From assembly GCA_012842395.1 (NCBI GenBank), contig DUSX01000017.1, forward strand, positions 62,001 through 126,000: 64,000 bases of DNA, given 5' to 3'. Below are positions 27,056-61,060 of the stretch, piece by piece. The position numbers and the translations under genes are program-made. Position 1 is the stretch's first letter, and each line of letters opens with the position of its first letter. Origin of the DNA: Bacillota bacterium. Its GTDB lineage: Bacteria > Bacillota > SHA-98 > UBA4971. The notes under the pieces were generated by a model. The model made no database searches, was not told the origin of the DNA, and saw only the letters and a program-made list of their open reading frames with translations.

Positions 27056-27092
27056 CCTCTGCACCTCTCTTCCGGCCTCTGACTAGATAAGT

Positions 27093-27101
27093 ATATTACC
27101 A
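27093..27101 (-). promoter_or_regulatory. Possible extended -10 promoter of the bactofilin-like gene
   Basis: On the minus strand TGG followed by TAATAT, an extended -10 arrangement, 38-46 nt before the ATG at 27055. No good -35 is visible. Confidence 0.4.
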
Positions 27102-27136
27102 GAAGTCCGCGTAGTTTCCCGGCGTGGGAGTCCCGC

Positions 27137-28120
27137 CTAGGGCTCGGGGTCTTGCGGCGGCTCCTCTGCGCCTTGCTCTCGCCTCGGCCGCCTCCGCGGA
27201 AATCCCACTTCGGAGGCAAGCATGCCCGCGAGGATGAGTGCAGCGCCTGCTTGTTGGGCTACTGTCAGACGCTCCCCGAGGATGAGCCATCCAAAGATCC
27301 CAGCGAACACTGGCTCCGTAGCGAACACGATGGCCACATGGGTGGGACTGGTGAAGCGCTGGGCGACGTTCTGGACAAAGAAAGCCATCGCGGTCCCGAA
27401 GACTGCCAGAAACGCGACCCCGCCGAGGTCTTGAATGGAGACGGGCATCGCGACGTGCTGCCCTAACCAAAGCGTCCGGACCGCCACGACCGCGAAGGCG
27501 GCGGCCGCCACGGTGGCGAGCTGCGTCGTCACAAGCAAGGGCACGTCGAAGAGCGGGGCGAACTTGCCCACCGCGACGATGTGAAGCCCGAACGCCACGG
27601 CCCCGACCAAGACCAGGAGATCGCCGACCTCGAAAAGGGGGCCACCTCCGAGGTCGAGGGTGAGCAGCCCGAGGCCGACGACGGCGCACCCGACCCCTGC
27701 GATTGCGGCGGGCTCAGGCGGCTTCTTAAGGATCAACGTGGACAGGATAGGGACGAGCACGACCGAAAGACCGGTTATGAACCCCGCCTTCGACGCGCTG
27801 GTGTACTCCAGGCCCAGGGTTTGGAAGGCATACCCGACGAACAATGCTAGGCCTACCAATACCCCCGCGCCCGCGAGCCTCAGCGTCATGCGCCTGAACC
27901 GGGGAGCGACTGCCACACCGATGATGACAGCAGCCATGAGAAAGCGCACAGCCACGAGGGCTATCGCGTCGACCCTGGCGACCATGTCCTTGACCACGAC
28001 GAATGTGGCGCCCCAAACGAGCGTCGTCAGAACGAGCGATCCATCGGCAACCAATTGCCGATGGACCGGGCTCGCCCAGAATCCCTTGAAACGGAAACCG
28101 TCTTGTGATCCTTCGCGCAC
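27137..28120 (-). CDS. EamA/DMT-family transporter
   Basis: 327 residues with ten hydrophobic segments in two EamA repeats (first half LVWGATFVVVKDMVARVDAIALVAVRF; second half GTAMAFFVQNVAQRFTSPTHVAIVFATEPVFAG with the conserved EPVFA). A drug/metabolite exporter of unknown substrate. GTG at 28120 has AGGAGG 7 nt upstream. The C-terminal tail is charged and Glu/Pro-rich. It lies downstream of gatB on the same strand, 86 nt away, probably not functionally linked. Confidence 0.88.
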   Translation of the reverse strand: MREGSQDGFRFKGFWASPVHRQLVADGSLVLTTLVWGATFVVVKDMVARVDAIALVAVRFLMAAVIIGVAVAPRFRRMTLRLAGAGVLVGLALFVGYAFQTLGLEYTSASKAGFITGLSVVLVPILSTLILKKPPEPAAIAGVGCAVVGLGLLTLDLGGGPLFEVGDLLVLVGAVAFGLHIVAVGKFAPLFDVPLLVTTQLATVAAAAFAVVAVRTLWLGQHVAMPVSIQDLGGVAFLAVFGTAMAFFVQNVAQRFTSPTHVAIVFATEPVFAGIFGWLILGERLTVAQQAGAALILAGMLASEVGFPRRRPRREQGAEEPPQDPEP

Positions 28121-31391: not shown

Positions 31392-31598
31392 AAGTATGGC
31401 GCCGTAAGTTTTCGTCTCCCTTTTTGACGGTGCTAGGGTTGCCGGGGCTTGCACGACGGGGCGTGGAGAATTCGGCTGTCTTAAGCGCCGAATTCGAACG
31501 AGGCGCGCTGCGAGCGCGCCGTCCCCGGAGGGCAAGACCGGTAACCCTGGGCAAGACCCCTCCGCCGAAAAGTGGCCGGGACTCTCGGCGGCATACTC
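31392..31598 (+). repeat. Dispersed palindromic repeat, copy 1 (inside the gatCAB operon)
   Basis: 207 bp with the same left (AAGTATGGCGCCGTAAGTT) and right (CGGCGGCATACTC) ends as copy 2. Internal stems: AGGGTTGCCGG / CCGGTAACCCT, GAATTCGGC / GCCGAATTC and GGCGCGC / GCGCGCC. It begins 4 nt after the gatC stop and ends about 65 nt before the gatA start. Confidence 0.85.
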
Positions 31599-37599: not shown

Positions 37600-37705
37600 A
37601 GGCCTCGGCGTTCGAACGAGGCACGCCGCAAGCGCGCCGTCCCTGGAGGGAAAGGCCGGCAGCCCTGAACAGGGCCTGCACGCTCAAAACCGGCGCGGAG
37701 TCGTG
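37600..37705 (+). repeat. Dispersed palindromic repeat, copy 4 (degenerate right half)
   Basis: The stretch TTCGAACGAGGCACGCCGC and the following AGCGCGCCGTCCCTGGAGGG match the right half of the 207-bp element; the left half is not recognisable. It is situated between the two permease genes of the sugar ABC operon, in a 255-nt gap without a gene. Confidence 0.6.
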
Positions 37706-37714
37706 GCCAGCTCG

Positions 37715-41797: not shown

Positions 41798-42056
41798 ACT
41801 GCCGAGCAAATCGTCGCCACAACTCTGCGCTACCTTACGCGCCCCTGACGTCTCGCCTAACGCTATCGGGCCTGGCCCAAGGTTATCGAACATGCCCTCC
41901 CTCCTCGGCGAGCCTCGGGCGCACGTCATTCGGCTTTCGCACGCGAGCTCGAGCTGGTCGAATCTCTATGCCCCTGGCACAAGCGCCGGTGCCGCGATCT
42001 CGTGCATAACTATTCGCTGAGCCTCCTATGAATCCTGCCATCTTTCATAAAGTTCT

Positions 42057-46238: not shown

Positions 46239-46769
46239 GATCGCTCCCTCCTCAGACGGCCAAGCTCCACGTCTCTCGTCGCGGCCCCACAGGCCCACTA
46301 CAGGCCCACTCGAGGATGGCCCGCGACCCGTGCCGCGGCATCCGCATGCCGGCTCCGCCTACGGGCTGGGTATTCTACACGACGCTGCCCCATCCCTTCA
46401 CACCGAAGTCGGATTTCAGAGGCTGCCAAGGTCGTCACAAGCCCGCGCTCCTTTTCAGCGCACAAGTCCTGCCCCGGGCTGCCGGCGTTCGTCCTGAGGA
46501 GACGGCGCCGCGCTTGCGGCGCGCCTCGTTCGAGTTCGCCGCCCGGGCTGGCCGAATTCCGAGCGCCCCGTCGTGCAAGCACCGGCAACCCCAGCGCCCT
46601 CGCCCTCGAGAGAAAGGGCAGAAACTTGCCGCGCCATACTTACGTAAGCGCGTGCACGCGTTCAAGGAAGGAAATCGGCGGATCGCGCAGAATACGGTGT
46701 GGCGAACTGCAGCAGCCTAGCATATCAGCACGGTATCGGGGCGAAGGCCGTCAACTGAGGGGGGATACG
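46239..46769. other. Divergent gap between tldD and the aminotransferase gene
   Basis: 531 nt, mostly filled by repeat copy 3 (46428-46641). Outside it I see no gene and no confident promoter. Confidence 0.5.
46428..46641 (-). repeat. Dispersed palindromic repeat, copy 3
   Basis: About 214 bp in minus orientation. Left end AAGTATGGCGCGGC, then GGGGTTGCCGGTGCTTGCAC, the GAATTCGGC arm, CTCGAACGAGGCGCGCCGC, and a decayed right end. It occupies the divergent gap between tldD and the aminotransferase gene. Confidence 0.8.
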
Positions 46770-49724: not shown

Positions 49725-49726
49725 CC

Positions 49727-49933
49727 AAGTACGACGCCATAAGTTCTCGTCTCCTTTCTTGACGGCGCTGGGGTTGCCGGTGCTTGCACGACGGGGCGTG
49801 GAGAATTCGGCAGGCTTGCGCGCCGAATTCGAACGAGGCGCGCCGCAAGCGCGCCGTCCCCGGAGGGCAACACCGGCAACCCTGGGCAGGAGCCCTCCGC
49901 CGAAAAGTGGCGCGAACTTTTGGCGACATACTC
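49727..49933 (+). repeat. Dispersed palindromic repeat, copy 2 (reference copy)
   Basis: 207 bp. Outer imperfect inverted ends AAGTACGACGCCATAAGTT and AACTTTTGGCGACATACTC pair at about 15 of 19 positions. Inner stems are GGGTTGCCGGT (49771) with ACCGGCAACCC (49872), GAATTCGGC (49803) with GCCGAATTC (49822), and GGCGCGC (49837) with GCGCGCC (49849). It starts 2 nt after the permease stop. Confidence 0.88.
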
Positions 49934-50066
49934 AGAAGGCTCATCCAGCCCCCAAAAGCTCGACGGAGCACTTGGCTTGCCAGCGGCGCCGGGGAATTGG
50001 AACGCCCATCATCCCAGTCGGACTTGGTGCTGAGATGAGACAAGGATCGGCGTTGTACGTGGCAAA

Positions 50067-53869: not shown

Positions 53870-54934
53870 TCAACCTCCGATCTCACACAGCGACGGCGAG
53901 GGCTGCAACACACCGTCGCCCGCCACGCCTCCGCACGCCGCGCCGCTCTCCGGCTTCATGCTCACAGCTTTCCGTATGAGCTCAGCAATGGCTGCGTCGT
54001 CGGCGCCGTCGCGAAGCGGCCCCCGCAAGTCGACCCCGGAGGTTGCGAGAAGGCACGGCAAGAGCTTGCCGTCGACCGTGAGACGCAGCCTGTTGCACCT
54101 CACGCAAAAACCGTCGCCCTCCCTTGATATGAAGCCGACTCGCCCGAGCGCTCCAGGCAGCCGTATGTAGCTCGCGGGGCCCGATTCGCCTGCTGCCTCC
54201 AGGCCTGGCCGCCCCGTGGGTGCGGCCGAGCCCAACGTCAGTGACGCGTGGCAAGGGACCAATGCCCCACCACGGGCGATGGCCTTCACTCTTCCCCTCA
54301 CCTCTTCAATGGGGACCACATCCGAAGGCCCGAGGCTCCCGCCATTGCCCCAAAACGGCATGAGCTCTATGAACCTCACGTCCCAGGCGTGTTCCAACGT
54401 GAGTCGAGCGAGATCCTCGATCTCGCCGTCATTTACGCCCCGGACCACCACAGCGTTTAACCTGATGGGCCGAAGGCCTGCCGCCTCCGCAGCGGCTATC
54501 CCGCGGAGCGCCGCCTGGAGATCGCCACGTCGCGTTATCCTCGAGTACACGTCCGGCCTCAGCGTGTCCAGGCTGATGTTGACTCGCTTGAGCCCTGCGG
54601 CCGCGAGCTCGGCAGCGCGGTCATCAAGAAGCGTGCCATTGGTGGTCATCGCGAAGTCGCGGAGGCCAGGAAGAGAGGCGATCATCTTCACGAGCTGCAC
54701 GAGGCCCTTGCGCACGAGGGGCTCGCCGCCGGTGATCCTCACCTTGGTGATCCCCAGGCCGGCTGCGACCCGGACCACGCGGGCGATTTCCTCGAGCCTG
54801 AGTATCTCGTGGTGCGACCTGGGCTTCACCCCGTGCTCTGGCATACAGTAAACGCACCGGAGGTTACACTTGTCCGTCACAGAGACGCGCAGATACGTGA
54901 TCCTCCGGCCAAAGGCATCAACGAGCGTTGTCAC
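53870..54934 (-). CDS. moaA: GTP 3',8-cyclase
   Basis: Radical-SAM enzyme for the first step of molybdenum/tungsten cofactor synthesis. 354 residues: N-terminal CX3CX2C (Cys23, 27, 30), GGEP (TGGEPLV), and the C-terminal second cluster CVRCNRLRLTVDGKLLPC. The usual C-terminal GG is present (CEIGG). GTG at 54934 overlaps the moeA-PBP stop (GTGA); a GTG at 54943 is an alternative. Confidence 0.95.
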   Translation of the reverse strand: MTTLVDAFGRRITYLRVSVTDKCNLRCVYCMPEHGVKPRSHHEILRLEEIARVVRVAAGLGITKVRITGGEPLVRKGLVQLVKMIASLPGLRDFAMTTNGTLLDDRAAELAAAGLKRVNISLDTLRPDVYSRITRRGDLQAALRGIAAAEAAGLRPIRLNAVVVRGVNDGEIEDLARLTLEHAWDVRFIELMPFWGNGGSLGPSDVVPIEEVRGRVKAIARGGALVPCHASLTLGSAAPTGRPGLEAAGESGPASYIRLPGALGRVGFISREGDGFCVRCNRLRLTVDGKLLPCLLATSGVDLRGPLRDGADDAAIAELIRKAVSMKPESGAACGGVAGDGVLQPSPSLCEIGG

Positions 54935-56859
54935 CCTTCCCACACGACCTTTCCGGTGTCCGACACGTCGTACCCGCCAAGACCGGCGACAGCCGCCTTG
55001 AACTCGTTCGACCTCATCACGGTCAGAAGTTTATCCATCATTGAAGAACCAAGGAAGGCCTTGGTCGTGAGAAGGTCGTATCGCTCCTTCGCGACCGGCA
55101 CGAAATCGAGGCCTAGCGCGGCTGCGGCGCTGCGTATCCCAAGACCGACGTCGGCAGCTCCACTCGCCACGCAAGAGGCGACGCCCATATGGGTATATTC
55201 TTCGCGCTCGTACCCGGCTATCCTTCCCGGATCCAAACCAAGTCTTGCGAGCTCGAGGTCAAGGAGCACCCTCGTTCCCGCGCCCTTCTGCCTGTTCACG
55301 AAGACGACGCCAGGCCTCGTAAGGTCGGCGAAACCTGCGATGCCTTTGGGATTCCCCTTGGCCACAATGAAGCCCTGCTCGCGATGGACGAGGTTCACGA
55401 GGGCAAAGCCTTCGGTCCCGAGGAATCGTTCGACGTACGGCACGTTGTACTCTCCGGTCTCTCCATCGATGAGGTGAACTCCCGCGAGGTGGGCCTCGCC
55501 CCTCTGGATCGCCATGAGCCCCCCCATGCTGCCCACGTGTGCCGAGGAAAGGCTCAGGCCGGGGTACCTGCACGCGAGATGGCTTGCGAGGAGGTCTAGG
55601 GTGAGATCGTGGCTGCCTATCACGACGATGGTATTTGATATGTCATCGGGCTCGCGCGATAGCTCCACCTCGACCGTGGACGACGCCTCCACGCCCTGGG
55701 CCGAGGGGGGTATGCGGATCAACCCGTCAGCCCTCACAAGGGACATCACTGCGGCCGCTCCGCGCGCAAGCGGCGTGACAACGCGCTTTCCGTTCACTTC
55801 CCCCACCTTGACCCTGACGAACTCATCCACGCCCGGCGTCGACACGATCCGCCGGGTTGCCACGGCGGGCATCTTCGGACGGCGCGGCGCTGGCCGCCCG
55901 AGCATCCTCGCCACGAGCGGCCTCAGGAAAAGCTCGCATGCGAGCGAGGCCGACACCGGGTAGCCGGGGATCCCTAAGAACGGCCGGCCGCAAACGATGC
56001 CTAAGATCGTGGGTTTCCCAGGCTTGATCGCGACCCCGTGGACGAGGAGCTCGCCTAGGGAGCTCACCACGCGACCGGTGTAATCCTCGCTGCCGGCTGA
56101 GGATCCCGCGTTGACCACGACGATGTCGGCCGCGTCGGCGGCCACGCGCACGGCATGCGCGATGGCTTCGTAGTCGTCCCTCACGATCTCGTGCAGGACC
56201 GGCTCGCCACCCCATTCGTGAACGAGTCCGCCCACGATCCTCGAGTTGAATTCGATGATTCTCCCGGGGGAGAGCGGCGTTCCTGGCGGCACGAGCTCGT
56301 CGCCGGTGGGAATCACAGCCACTCTTGGCTTCTTGCGGACGCTCACTTCGGTGACTCCCGCCGCGAGCATGGCTCCGAGGTCCGGGGGCCGAATGACGTG
56401 ATTCGCCGTCAGGACAAGCTCCGTGGCCACGATGTCCTCGCCTACCGAGCGCACATGCTGCCACGGCCTTGCCGGGGCGATGACCGTGACGCGGTCCTCG
56501 CGCACCTCAACGAGATCCTCGACCATGATGACGGCGTCGAACCCGGGCGGCAGCGGGTCTCCAGTGTCGACCCACCGTGCCTCCTCGCCGAGGCGCAGCG
56601 TTACCGGGTTTCTTTCGCTTGCCCCGAAGGTGGCTTCGGCCCGCGTGGCGATCCCGTCCATGGCGCAAGAATGGTAGTACGGCGACGACACGCGCGCCGC
56701 CACCGGCGAGGCGGTCACGCGCCCCAGGGCGGGGATATCCACCGGGATGGTCTCGCCCTCCAGCGGAGCCGTCATCCCCCTCGCCTCGAGAGTTGAAAAG
56801 AACCTTTGCAGCGCCTCGTCGAGAGGCGCCTCTGTGAGGTATACGTCGCGCTTCGTCAT
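54931..56859 (-). CDS. MoeA - periplasmic-binding-like (PBP) domain fusion
   Basis: 642 residues. Residues 1-~400 are MoeA (molybdopterin molybdotransferase): AALGRVTASPV-like start, SPYYHSCAMDGIA, PTGDELV, NAGSSAGSEDYT, GIPGYPVSASL. Residues ~410-642 form a PBP-like domain (VIGSHDLTLDLLASHLA, HVGSMGGLMAIQRGEAHLAG, NRQKGAGTRVLLD), probably ligand-sensing. ATG at 56859 has GGAGG 6 nt upstream. The frame to 57255 runs through repeat copy 5 and is not coding. Fused forms are known in anaerobes. Confidence 0.92.
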   Translation of the reverse strand: MTKRDVYLTEAPLDEALQRFFSTLEARGMTAPLEGETIPVDIPALGRVTASPVAARVSSPYYHSCAMDGIATRAEATFGASERNPVTLRLGEEARWVDTGDPLPPGFDAVIMVEDLVEVREDRVTVIAPARPWQHVRSVGEDIVATELVLTANHVIRPPDLGAMLAAGVTEVSVRKKPRVAVIPTGDELVPPGTPLSPGRIIEFNSRIVGGLVHEWGGEPVLHEIVRDDYEAIAHAVRVAADAADIVVVNAGSSAGSEDYTGRVVSSLGELLVHGVAIKPGKPTILGIVCGRPFLGIPGYPVSASLACELFLRPLVARMLGRPAPRRPKMPAVATRRIVSTPGVDEFVRVKVGEVNGKRVVTPLARGAAAVMSLVRADGLIRIPPSAQGVEASSTVEVELSREPDDISNTIVVIGSHDLTLDLLASHLACRYPGLSLSSAHVGSMGGLMAIQRGEAHLAGVHLIDGETGEYNVPYVERFLGTEGFALVNLVHREQGFIVAKGNPKGIAGFADLTRPGVVFVNRQKGAGTRVLLDLELARLGLDPGRIAGYEREEYTHMGVASCVASGAADVGLGIRSAAAALGLDFVPVAKERYDLLTTKAFLGSSMMDKLLTVMRSNEFKAAVAGLGGYDVSDTGKVVWEG

Positions 56860-56980
56860 CTTCACCCTCCAGTCCGCCCGTCGTCGGGCGCAACCCCCAT
56901 GACGGTCCCTAGGAAGGACGCCCGGCCCTGTTCCGGCACACACGCAACACAGCCCGCCGACCCCGCGAGCCCTCCGCGTC

Positions 56981-57215
56981 GAGACAGACCTCGAGAGGCT
57001 CGCGCCGCTTTCCAGCGCCGAAGTCTCGCCGCCCAAGGCTACCGGCATGCCCCCCGTACACGACGCGCCTGCGGCCTGCGCCGTGCCCCGTTCCCGTTCG
57101 GACCCCGCGTCCGAGATAGCCGAGGCCGACATGGCCGAGTTCCCCACGCCCCACCGTGCAAGCACGGGCAGCCGTCGCGCTCCGGAAAGGAGACGAGAGC
57201 CTGCGGCACCGTGCT
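56981..57215 (-). repeat. Dispersed palindromic repeat, copy 5 (expanded)
   Basis: About 235 bp in minus orientation. CTCTCGTCTCCTTTC, CCCGTGCTTGCACGGTGGGG, GAACTCGGC and the right-end CTGGAAAGCGGCGCGAGCC are recognisable; the middle is expanded by roughly 30 bp. It starts at the moeA stop codon and fills most of the 355-nt gap to moeA-PBP. Confidence 0.7.
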
Positions 57216-58453
57216 CAGAACAACAGCGAAACGGTGACACGAGCTCCTTTCTCAAGGCCCTCGGCGTCCGCGGGGATCCTGATGATCCCAGTGGACGCCA
57301 CTAGCCCTGATATCAGCGAGGATTTGGTGAAGACCGGGTCCGCCCACACTTCTCCGTCACGCGTCACCACGTGTACCCCGACGTAATCCTCCCGCCCGGC
57401 CGCGGACGGCACGTTTGCCCCAAGGCGGGCCACAAGCTCGCGCCTCTCTGGCACCGTGCCCATCCACCTCGCTATGGCAGGCTCCACGAAAAGCCTGAAG
57501 ACCGTCAGGCAGGACACAGGGTGGCCTGGCAGCCCGAACACGGGCTTCCCTCCAGCGACCGCGATGATGGTGGGCTTCCCCGGCTTCACGGCAACGCCAT
57601 GTACCAAGACCCCGGGAGGCCCAAGGGAGTCGATGGCGTCACGTGTGAAGTCCCGGGCGCCAATGGAGCTGCCGCCAGAAACGACGAGCATGTCTGCGCT
57701 GGCCAGGCGCTCTCGCATGGCCGCCGCAAGCTCCTGGTAGTCATCTCGGACGATCCCTGCCGCAAGAGGTCTCCCGCCCGCCGCGAGCACTGCAGCGCAT
57801 AAAGAATACAAGTTCGTGTCTCGGACCTTCCCTGGCGGAGGGGTGGCGGCAACCTCCACGAGCTCGTCTCCGGTGGACATTATCGCGACATTCGGCTTTG
57901 CTGCCACCTTCACCCTGGACACGCCGGCGGCAGCGAGAGCCCCGATGTCCTGCGGACGCAGTCTCGCACCCTTCTTCAGGAGCACGGCACCGCGGGCCAC
58001 GTCCTCCGCGGGACCGATCGCGTTCTCGCCAGGCGCCACGGCCTTGTCGACCGCCACGAGATTCCCGCCGGTCTCCATCGTGGCCTCGACCATGACGACG
58101 GCATCCGCGCCCTGCGGCAGCATTGCCCCGGTGGCAACCCTCGCGCACTCTCCCGGCCTCAACGCGAAGCACGGGGCGTCCCCGATTCGGACCTCGCCAG
58201 CGACGGCAAGGAGCGCCGGCATGGACTCGGTTGCCCCGAAGGTGTCCCGGGCGCGCACGGCAAAGCCGTCCACGGTCGACCTGGGAAAGCCTGGCAGATC
58301 CGCGGGACTAGTCACGTCCTCCGCAAGCACGCGCCCGTGGGCGTCGAGAAGGTCGACCATCTCGACACGACGTGGTCCGCACTCAAGGTGCTCCTCCAGC
58401 CTCCGCCACGCCTCACCGGGAGGAAGAAGCGACAGGAAGACCTGCAACTGCAT
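57215..58453 (-). CDS. moeA: Molybdopterin molybdotransferase (MoeA)
   Basis: Inserts molybdate or tungstate into adenylylated molybdopterin. 412 residues with GRVLAEDVTSPADLPGFPRSTVDGFAVRA, TGAMLPQGADAVVMVE, STGDELVEV, SGGSSIGARDFT and GLPGHPVSCL in order. It is distinct from the fused MoeA downstream; such pairs may split Mo and W. ATG at 58453 lies inside tupC, overlapping it by 41 nt; AGGA precedes by 5 nt. Confidence 0.92.
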   Translation of the reverse strand: MQLQVFLSLLPPGEAWRRLEEHLECGPRRVEMVDLLDAHGRVLAEDVTSPADLPGFPRSTVDGFAVRARDTFGATESMPALLAVAGEVRIGDAPCFALRPGECARVATGAMLPQGADAVVMVEATMETGGNLVAVDKAVAPGENAIGPAEDVARGAVLLKKGARLRPQDIGALAAAGVSRVKVAAKPNVAIMSTGDELVEVAATPPPGKVRDTNLYSLCAAVLAAGGRPLAAGIVRDDYQELAAAMRERLASADMLVVSGGSSIGARDFTRDAIDSLGPPGVLVHGVAVKPGKPTIIAVAGGKPVFGLPGHPVSCLTVFRLFVEPAIARWMGTVPERRELVARLGANVPSAAGREDYVGVHVVTRDGEVWADPVFTKSSLISGLVASTGIIRIPADAEGLEKGARVTVSLLF

Positions 58454-59207
58454 CACCGTCCTGAGACAAGATCCAGCGGGCGGAGCCGGCAAGAGCGGAG
58501 AGAGCCCGCCTCATGTCGTCGCTGAGCACGTCTCTCACCGGCCCGCAAGCCACGATCCGCCCGCCTGCCATGACCGCGGTCCTTTCTGCCAGGAACGGGA
58601 TCTCCATAACATCGTGGGTCACGAACACCGTGGTCACGCGCGTCTCGCGAACCACCTCGGCCAGCTCAGCGAGGAGCGCTATCCTTGTCGGGACGTCCAA
58701 CGAGCTCGTGGGCTCGTCCAAGAAGAGCACCTCAGGTTCCAGGACGATAGCCCTCGCGAGGCTAACCCTTTGGCTTTCGCCACCAGAGAGCGCCCGCGCG
58801 CGCCGCGCAGCGAGATGCTCGATGTTGAAAGCGGCAAGCGCCCGCTCAACCCTGGTTCGGATCTCTTCGCGCGGGACGCCGCGCATCCGGAGGCCCACTG
58901 CCACGTTGTCGAACACCGTGCCGTCCAGGAGGTACGGGCGCTGAAGCACCATGGCCATACGACGCCGGAGTCTCAGGAGATTCGTACGCCTTTCGACCTT
59001 CTCTCCGCATACGACGACCTCGCCTGCCCCGGGCCGGAGAAGGCACGCCATCACCTGAAGAAGGGTGCTTTTCCCAGCGCCATTAGGGCCCACCACCGCC
59101 AGGGCCTCGCCGCGCCGCACCACGAGGCGCGGGACATCCAGAACCATTCTCGTGCCACGAAACACCTTGACATCCTTGAGATCGACAACAGCCTCATCCA
59201 ACAGCAC
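58413..59207 (-). CDS. tupC: Tungstate/molybdate ABC transporter ATP-binding protein
   Basis: 264 residues: Walker A GPNGAGKST, signature LSGGESQRVSLARA, Walker B VLFLDEPTSSLD, His in VTHDVME. The DLKDVKVFRGTRMVLDVPRLVVRRGEALAV start is typical. GTG at 59207 (GAGGGG close by) is preferred to the frame start at 59279. ATPase of the TupAB system upstream. Confidence 0.9.
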   Translation of the reverse strand: MLLDEAVVDLKDVKVFRGTRMVLDVPRLVVRRGEALAVVGPNGAGKSTLLQVMACLLRPGAGEVVVCGEKVERRTNLLRLRRRMAMVLQRPYLLDGTVFDNVAVGLRMRGVPREEIRTRVERALAAFNIEHLAARRARALSGGESQRVSLARAIVLEPEVLFLDEPTSSLDVPTRIALLAELAEVVRETRVTTVFVTHDVMEIPFLAERTAVMAGGRIVACGPVRDVLSDDMRRALSALAGSARWILSQDGDAVAGLPVASSSR

Positions 59208-59971: not shown

Positions 59972-60859
59972 TCACCGTCCGAGATCGTCTTCGTTCTTGC
60001 CAGCGTCCGCGAAGAAGAGTGGTTCGCCGTAGTCTCTGACTCCGAACGAGGCGATCACCTTCTGGGTCTCGGGAGCCACCATAAACTCTACAAATGCCTT
60101 GGCTCCCGGGCCGTTCACTTTGTCGAACTTCTCAGGGTTCACCTGCATCACGTGGTAGATGTTGAGGAGCATCGGGTCGCCCTGCACCAACACGTCAAGG
60201 CCAAGGCGCTTCTTGAGGGCGAGATAGGTGCCCCGGTCCGTCAGCGTATACCCTTCCTTCTCGGAAGCGATATTCAGGGTCTGCCCCATGCCCGAGCCAG
60301 CCTCCTGGTACCAACGCCCTCCAGGCTGTACCGAGGCCTTGGCCCAGATCTCCTTTTCTTTCTTGTGCGTGCCCGAGTCGTCGCCCCGTGACACGAAAAC
60401 CGCCTCGTGGGCCGCGATCTTCTTGAACGCTTCAGGCGCGGAAGTCAAGCCGCGTATACCCGCGGGGTCACTTGGCGGACCGACGATTATGAAGTCGTTG
60501 TGCATAACCAGCCTGCGGTTGGTTACAAGCCCGCTCGTCACGAGCTCCATCTCCGACGCAGGCGCATGACACAGGAGCACGTCGGCTTCGCCGCGGGCGC
60601 CGAGAGCGAGCGCCTGCCCTGTGCCCACGGCTATCGCTTTCACCATGTAGCCCGTCTCGCTCTCGAACATGGGAATGAGCACGTCGAGCAGGCCAGTGTC
60701 CTGAGTGCTGGTGGTGGTAGCCAGGATGACCTCACGCGCGGCGGGCGCTGCGGTTGCAGCGCTTCCGAAGGCAACAGCAAGGAAGATTACCACAACAAGC
60801 CCAAGCGGGAGGAAACGACTTTCCACACAACGGCACAGCAAACCTTTGGGCTTTGGCAT
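59972..60859 (-). CDS. tupA: Tungstate ABC transporter substrate-binding protein
   Basis: 295 residues, secreted: signal peptide (about 1-40, LPLGLVVVIFLAVAFGSAATAA). The mature start REVILATTTSTQDTGLLDVLIPMFE is the TupA signature, and GDDSGTHKKE with YTLTDRGTYLAL are oxyanion-pocket segments. TupA proteins favour tungstate over molybdate. ATG at 60859; GGAG lies 12 nt upstream within a possible sequestering hairpin. First gene of the cofactor operon. Confidence 0.92.
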   Translation of the reverse strand: MPKPKGLLCRCVESRFLPLGLVVVIFLAVAFGSAATAAPAAREVILATTTSTQDTGLLDVLIPMFESETGYMVKAIAVGTGQALALGARGEADVLLCHAPASEMELVTSGLVTNRRLVMHNDFIIVGPPSDPAGIRGLTSAPEAFKKIAAHEAVFVSRGDDSGTHKKEKEIWAKASVQPGGRWYQEAGSGMGQTLNIASEKEGYTLTDRGTYLALKKRLGLDVLVQGDPMLLNIYHVMQVNPEKFDKVNGPGAKAFVEFMVAPETQKVIASFGVRDYGEPLFFADAGKNEDDLGR

Positions 60860-60893
60860 GATCCTTAACATCTCCTTTCCAATAGTGGGAGGC

Positions 60894-60950
60894 TTGCCAG
60901 TTTCCCGGCAAACCCTCGAGCCGCAGAGACCTCGCTTCCGCGGCTGCCGG
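60894..60950 (-). promoter_or_regulatory. tupA leader with mutually exclusive hairpins
   Basis: In the tupA transcript CCGGCA (60950-60945) can pair with TGCCGG (60910-60905), while TTGCC (60911-60907) can pair with GGCAA (60898-60894); the two share 60905-60911. Further on, CTCC (60891-60888) can pair with the ribosome-site GGAG (60875-60872). This is a switch-like layout; a Moco-type riboswitch is possible but not recognised. Confidence 0.45.
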
Positions 60951-61060
60951 TCACCCGCCATCCATGAGAGGGCCAGGCGCAGTGACTCGGAGAATCAGGC
61001 TCGCAGTTCGACCCGATGTGGTTCAAGCAAAGCTCACCTCTTGCCGACCCAGTCCCAGGA

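Follow-up and report, generated by a model that had tools for sequence, protein, structure and literature searches.

Does a palindromic repeat of about 207 bp, found several times in one bacterial window (the whole 64-kb stretch of DNA analysed), represent a mobile element, a REP-like palindrome, or a structured RNA? The original prediction proposed all three. We find that the repeat is, with high probability, a MITE, a non-autonomous DNA transposon that depends on a cut-and-paste transposase supplied in trans; this enzyme would target TA within CTAG and be of the IS630/Tc1-mariner type or an equivalent. The MITE option agrees with the terminal inverted repeats, a TA duplication visible against an empty site, the high copy number, the intergenic location, and the lack of a transposase in the element.

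Sequence comparison and a search with a profile of 30 genomic copies recover all five copies named beforehand in the window. Those at 31392-31598 and 49727-49933, described as equal in length and nearly the same in sequence, are 88% identical without gaps; those at 46428-46641 and 56981-57215 are indeed diverged, both on the minus strand, and the copy near 37600-37705 retains only its right half. The same profile adds two degraded copies, both on the minus strand (E ~2e-5). The 207-bp coordinates contain the complete 205-bp element but wrongly include one base of each flanking dinucleotide. Once these bases are trimmed, the element reads AGTAYG...ATACT and spans 31393-31597 and 49728-49932, and its flanks are a 2-bp target duplication. 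Folding bears out the nested palindrome, in which an outer and an inner stem surround a pair of hairpins. The features in the window are as follows.

27087..27155, minus strand: degraded partial copy (profile E 2e-5)
31393..31597, plus strand: copy 1 (profile E 2e-67), core at 31436-31548
37611..37709, plus strand: copy 4, right half only (profile E 5e-16)
41813..41989, minus strand: degraded partial copy (profile E 1.5e-5)
46431..46644, minus strand: copy 3, diverged (profile E 2e-37), core at 46475-46591
49726..49727, no strand: left target dinucleotide of copy 2, CA (consensus TA), with C before it
49728..49932, plus strand: copy 2, the best preserved in the window, 205 bp without the target duplication (full-length profile E 1e-73)
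49771..49883, plus strand: conserved core of copy 2, long stem GGGTTGCCGGTG/CACCGGCAACCC around two hairpins (covariance model R1, 136 bits)
49805..49833, approximate, plus strand: inner hairpin 1 of copy 2, GAATTCGGC...GCCGAATTC, folds
49838..49856, approximate, plus strand: inner hairpin 2 of copy 2, GGCGCGC...GCGCGCC, folds
49933..49934, no strand: right target dinucleotide of copy 2, CA (consensus TA), followed by G
56981..57220, minus strand: copy 5, diverged (profile E 1e-16)

Copies 1 and 2 have CA rather than TA on both sides (31391-31392/31598-31599 and 49726-49727/49933-49934), as if CA had been the target duplicated, and ISY100 occasionally uses targets other than TA (PMC2170065). 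A moeA-like gene at 57215-58492 takes its stop codon (TGA, derived from TA+A) from the end of copy 5; this copy separates it from an adjacent moeA-like gene (54931-56901), and a Moco (molybdenum/tungsten) riboswitch is found near the two genes (60854-61004, minus strand; 61.6 bits).

The ends CTAAGTATGGCGCCA are present in both orientations, forming terminal inverted repeats with the consensus C-TA-AGTRT...AYACT-TA-G, in one form C-TA-AGTATG...CATACT-TA-G; TA/TA is the commonest end pair in our tally. Full-length copies in the window's genome measure 206-237 bp including flanks, and no reading frame stays open across all copies. One locus preserves a clean empty site, GGGGCTAGGC, in G002, which is filled in the sister species G001 as GGGGC-TA-element-TA-GTC. 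Specifically, the G002 gene ends in ...AGG GGC TAG followed by GCTGGGCC, and the same gene in G001 ends in GGC TAA, followed by the element and then by TA-GTCTCGGCC; thus the TA inside CTAG was duplicated on insertion. A second empty site agrees on the right side only, leaving a single fully clean case, and copy 2 is missing from the orthologous intergenic region of five sister species, where the region is too diverged for an empty-site reading. ISY100 uses TA as its insertion target and duplicates it (PMC2170065), and IS630 is mentioned in that source as favouring TA within CTAG (PMC2170065, citing Tenzen and Ohtsubo 1991). Duplication of TA inside CTAG is the signature of IS630/Tc1-mariner transposition. 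A cut-and-paste transposase acting in trans, presumably IS630-like, would thus insert the element at TA inside CTAG and duplicate the TA; a TA-targeting IS5 relative could be a functional equivalent. The single fully clean empty site, the CA flanks of window copies 1 and 2, the conserved interior, the near-absence of arms without a core, and the lack of a transposase with matching ends among those examined in the class count against this reading.

The repeat is far from confined to the window, and the refuting outcome named in the original prediction, an absence of further copies in the genome, did not arise. In the 3.14-Mb draft genome, 41 places match copy 2 at E<=1e-7, and the end motif occurs 138 times vs 7 for a reversed control, so the repeat is not a product of chance. 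The profile finds 82 matches in 862 kb of this genome (G000 contigs C34, C18, and C17), or ~1.6% of the sample, which extrapolates to roughly 300 copies genome-wide, and G001 carries 37 copies in 196 kb. With a covariance model of the core, 14 of the 17 class genomes prove to carry copies: 4 to at least 150 per genome in the window's genus, 25 and 100 in a genus belonging to a second family, and 0-12 in the sister genus g2; the same model finds no core copies in a third family. The 207-base DNA query has no match elsewhere in the phylum among the genomes sampled, nor does the element match plasmid, phage, or viral collections. An exact match in Corallococcus (L113) falls in coding sequence of 74% GC and is attributed to chance. 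Identity with an already named family, a possibility raised at the outset, is not borne out, as Rfam gives no match above the gathering score and the element's sequence strings are not found in papers.

Based on a simple hexamer gene caller, the strong copies are all intergenic (63/63) in genomes where 83-87% of the sequence is coding. Free CTAG sites number 788 in the 862 kb vs ~2908 expected from base composition, i.e. they are ~3.7-fold rarer, which restricts the number of available target sites; 60 of the 246 non-coding ones (24%) are stop codons. Among the 63 strong copies, ~15 (counted by eye) abut a gene end and bear the gene's stop codon, as TA+A or a decayed form. Because TA plus the element's first A spells TAA, insertion into a TAG stop leaves the protein intact, and the G001 insertion did turn a TAG stop into TAA with the position of the protein end unchanged. 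A small repeat supplying stop codons has a precedent in pneumococcal BOX (PMC3049150). The placement also bears on whether the host keeps the repeat for regulation, as a transcription terminator or a 3' end structure of mRNAs near stop codons. The hairpin is strong, and copies between genes on one strand lie at a median of 26 bp from the upstream stop codon, as such a role would have it; but copies run with the genes about as often as against them (25 same, 21 opposite), and the stop-codon share of the copies equals that of non-coding CTAG sites, so target preference alone explains the placement. We therefore regard a host-kept regulatory repeat as very improbable. Insertion by the transposase looks random over CTAG, with subsequent loss of insertions inside genes, and survival would be helped where a TAG stop was hit.

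The original prediction suggested looking for a transposase that shares the outer inverted ends, and none emerged from the 17 class genomes, in which fetched loci were scanned for those ends. Searches for DDE_3, DDE_Tnp_1, and DDE_Tnp_1_2 in these genomes yield matches that, where examined, lack the element's ends; DDE_Tnp_1_2, the family in which a partner from the TA-targeting IS5 relatives (IS427 group) was sought, is absent except for two sub-threshold matches in G015. Long end pairs in the 862 kb are only chance pairs over ordinary genes, and no IS630-type autonomous element with shared ends is found in the class. Draft metagenome-assembled genomes often lose such elements. The missing partner weakens only the assignment to IS630, not the IS630-like way of working, and a predicted IS630-type partner would carry CTAAGTATG or CTAAGTGTA ends. 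An IS630 transposase remnant with a stop codon lies beside a second transposase in the window's genome (L162, G000:C51), and this remnant recurs in G004 with an equal score.

MITEs usually conserve their ends rather than their interior. In this family, a core of ~113 nt (element positions 44-160) is conserved across three genera, which belong to two families of the class, and the outer arms vary, with several arm types across genera; arms without a core almost never occur (10 degraded cases in the sequence compared). The core is built from a 12-bp outer stem, a stem of 4-6 bp, a G-rich stem, and two hairpins, and folding of the repeat's strand is far stronger than in shuffles (z = -6.1 as RNA, -7.0 as DNA). 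This structure was obtained by averaging pair probabilities and by building a covariance model, as unpaired cells made the RNAalifold consensus unusable. In g2, pairing holds in 94.8% of cells, and both sides have changed in 21 of 37 pairs; shuffles give 10.9 such pairs and slid controls no more than 9. The alignment used leans towards structure because it was fitted to the covariance model. A second core type has other hairpin sequences on a similar plan. At orthologous g2 sites, several species have the core, but in the opposite orientation or as the other type, and in G013 the core takes both orientations relative to the arms (14 and 7). The simplest reading is recombination between copies, which would flip the core within its arms and swap core types. 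The intergenic sites with an opposite or other-type core are L284/L291, L287/L324, L314/L290/L289, and L286/L326, one such core site lying between moaA and moaC. Mini-forms (L215 in G004; L222:10033) consist only of the outer stem GGGGTTGCCGGTG...CACCGGCAACCCC and a short loop, and one of them has no recognisable CTAAGT arms.

Given this conserved fold, we considered whether the core functions as a structured RNA that the mobile arms merely dispersed, with single copies kept for their RNA function. If so, G.U pairs should exceed A.C pairs on the functional strand. The double-sided changes in g2 agree with such a role, as does an excess of G.U on the modelled strand of this genus (48:13 by cells, p 8e-6; 25:11 by distinct events, p 0.03), which is also seen in sequence-only alignments (35:13 and 21:9). 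Strand-biased mutation could mimic this bias, and the covariance model was built for that strand, so we take the g2 excess as a weak hint of RNA-level constraint. Copies are also retained at orthologous intergenic sites, one pair being better conserved than its flanks. By contrast, G.U and A.C are balanced in copy-rich genera (G001 31:25, G013 14:11, and 52:58 in an overlapping set), and the 160:102 by cells in the window's genome shrinks to 35:34 by events, which probably means that the cell-level excess stems from fixed subfamily differences. The orientation of the core relative to genes flips between orthologous sites, the flanking genes have no common theme, and Rfam has no counterpart. 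A retained RNA as the main explanation is thus unlikely, and the structured-RNA proposal is reduced to a possible secondary role, with a modest wobble bias in one copy-poor genus and none in the copy-rich genera.

Another source of palindromes is the REP/BIME type, spread by a RAYT (HUH) transposase, which would likewise be palindromic, intergenic, and high in copy number. REP/BIME sequences are palindromes of 20-40 nt without target duplication, and the ~207-bp length, terminal inverted repeats, and 2-bp target duplication speak against the REP-like option; we hold it to be extremely improbable. For the preferred MITE, the core may be a cis-acting folded feature of the spreading copies, acting either as DNA, in hairpin or cruciform form, or once transcribed. 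A bolder version, in which the branched core is an old, class-wide RNA or folded-DNA module needed by the transposition machinery, conserved as the recognition feature instead of the ends and retained as a structured RNA in low-copy lineages, is speculative and rather doubtful.

Compared by description, the element groups with RUP, ERIC, and Correia, bacterial MITEs that duplicate TA, and works in the same way as they do. Like RUP of Streptococcus pneumoniae (107 bp, ~100 copies, IS630-type mobilisation proposed; PMC2229807, PMC3049150), it is short and intergenic, with terminal inverted repeats and a TA target; RUP shares its ends with IS630-Spn1 of its own genome, whereas a partner for the present element was not found, and the latter is longer, has a conserved branched core, and comes from another class of Bacillota. 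ERIC/IRU (127 bp) is also intergenic and MITE-like, with TA at both ends and a long stem-loop (PMC2229807), but it differs in length and is described from enterobacteria. Correia/NEMIS of Neisseria (~107 and 155 bp) shares the TA ends, target duplication, folding transcripts, and size variants that differ in their interior (PMC2229807); its terminal repeats are 24 bp, whereas the present element is best conserved across genera in its interior. BOX of S. pneumoniae is likewise modular and structured and provides stop codons for 36 annotated genes (PMC3049150), but is made of boxA-B-C modules. On these descriptions, the element is a new family, set apart from RUP, ERIC, and Correia by an interior that is longer, branched, and the best-conserved part.

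For a major repeat that makes up ~1.6% of the sampled genome in an uncultured Bacillota group, the analysis supplies a mechanism, insertion at the TA of CTAG, and a history that spans the class. This explains assembly breaks and gene-end oddities in these genomes, and raises the question of why different families keep the branched interior when the ends are free to change. Separately, G001 carries a ~160-bp segment (L220:8081-8249) within a repetitive coding stretch of Pro/Ala type that is absent in G002.
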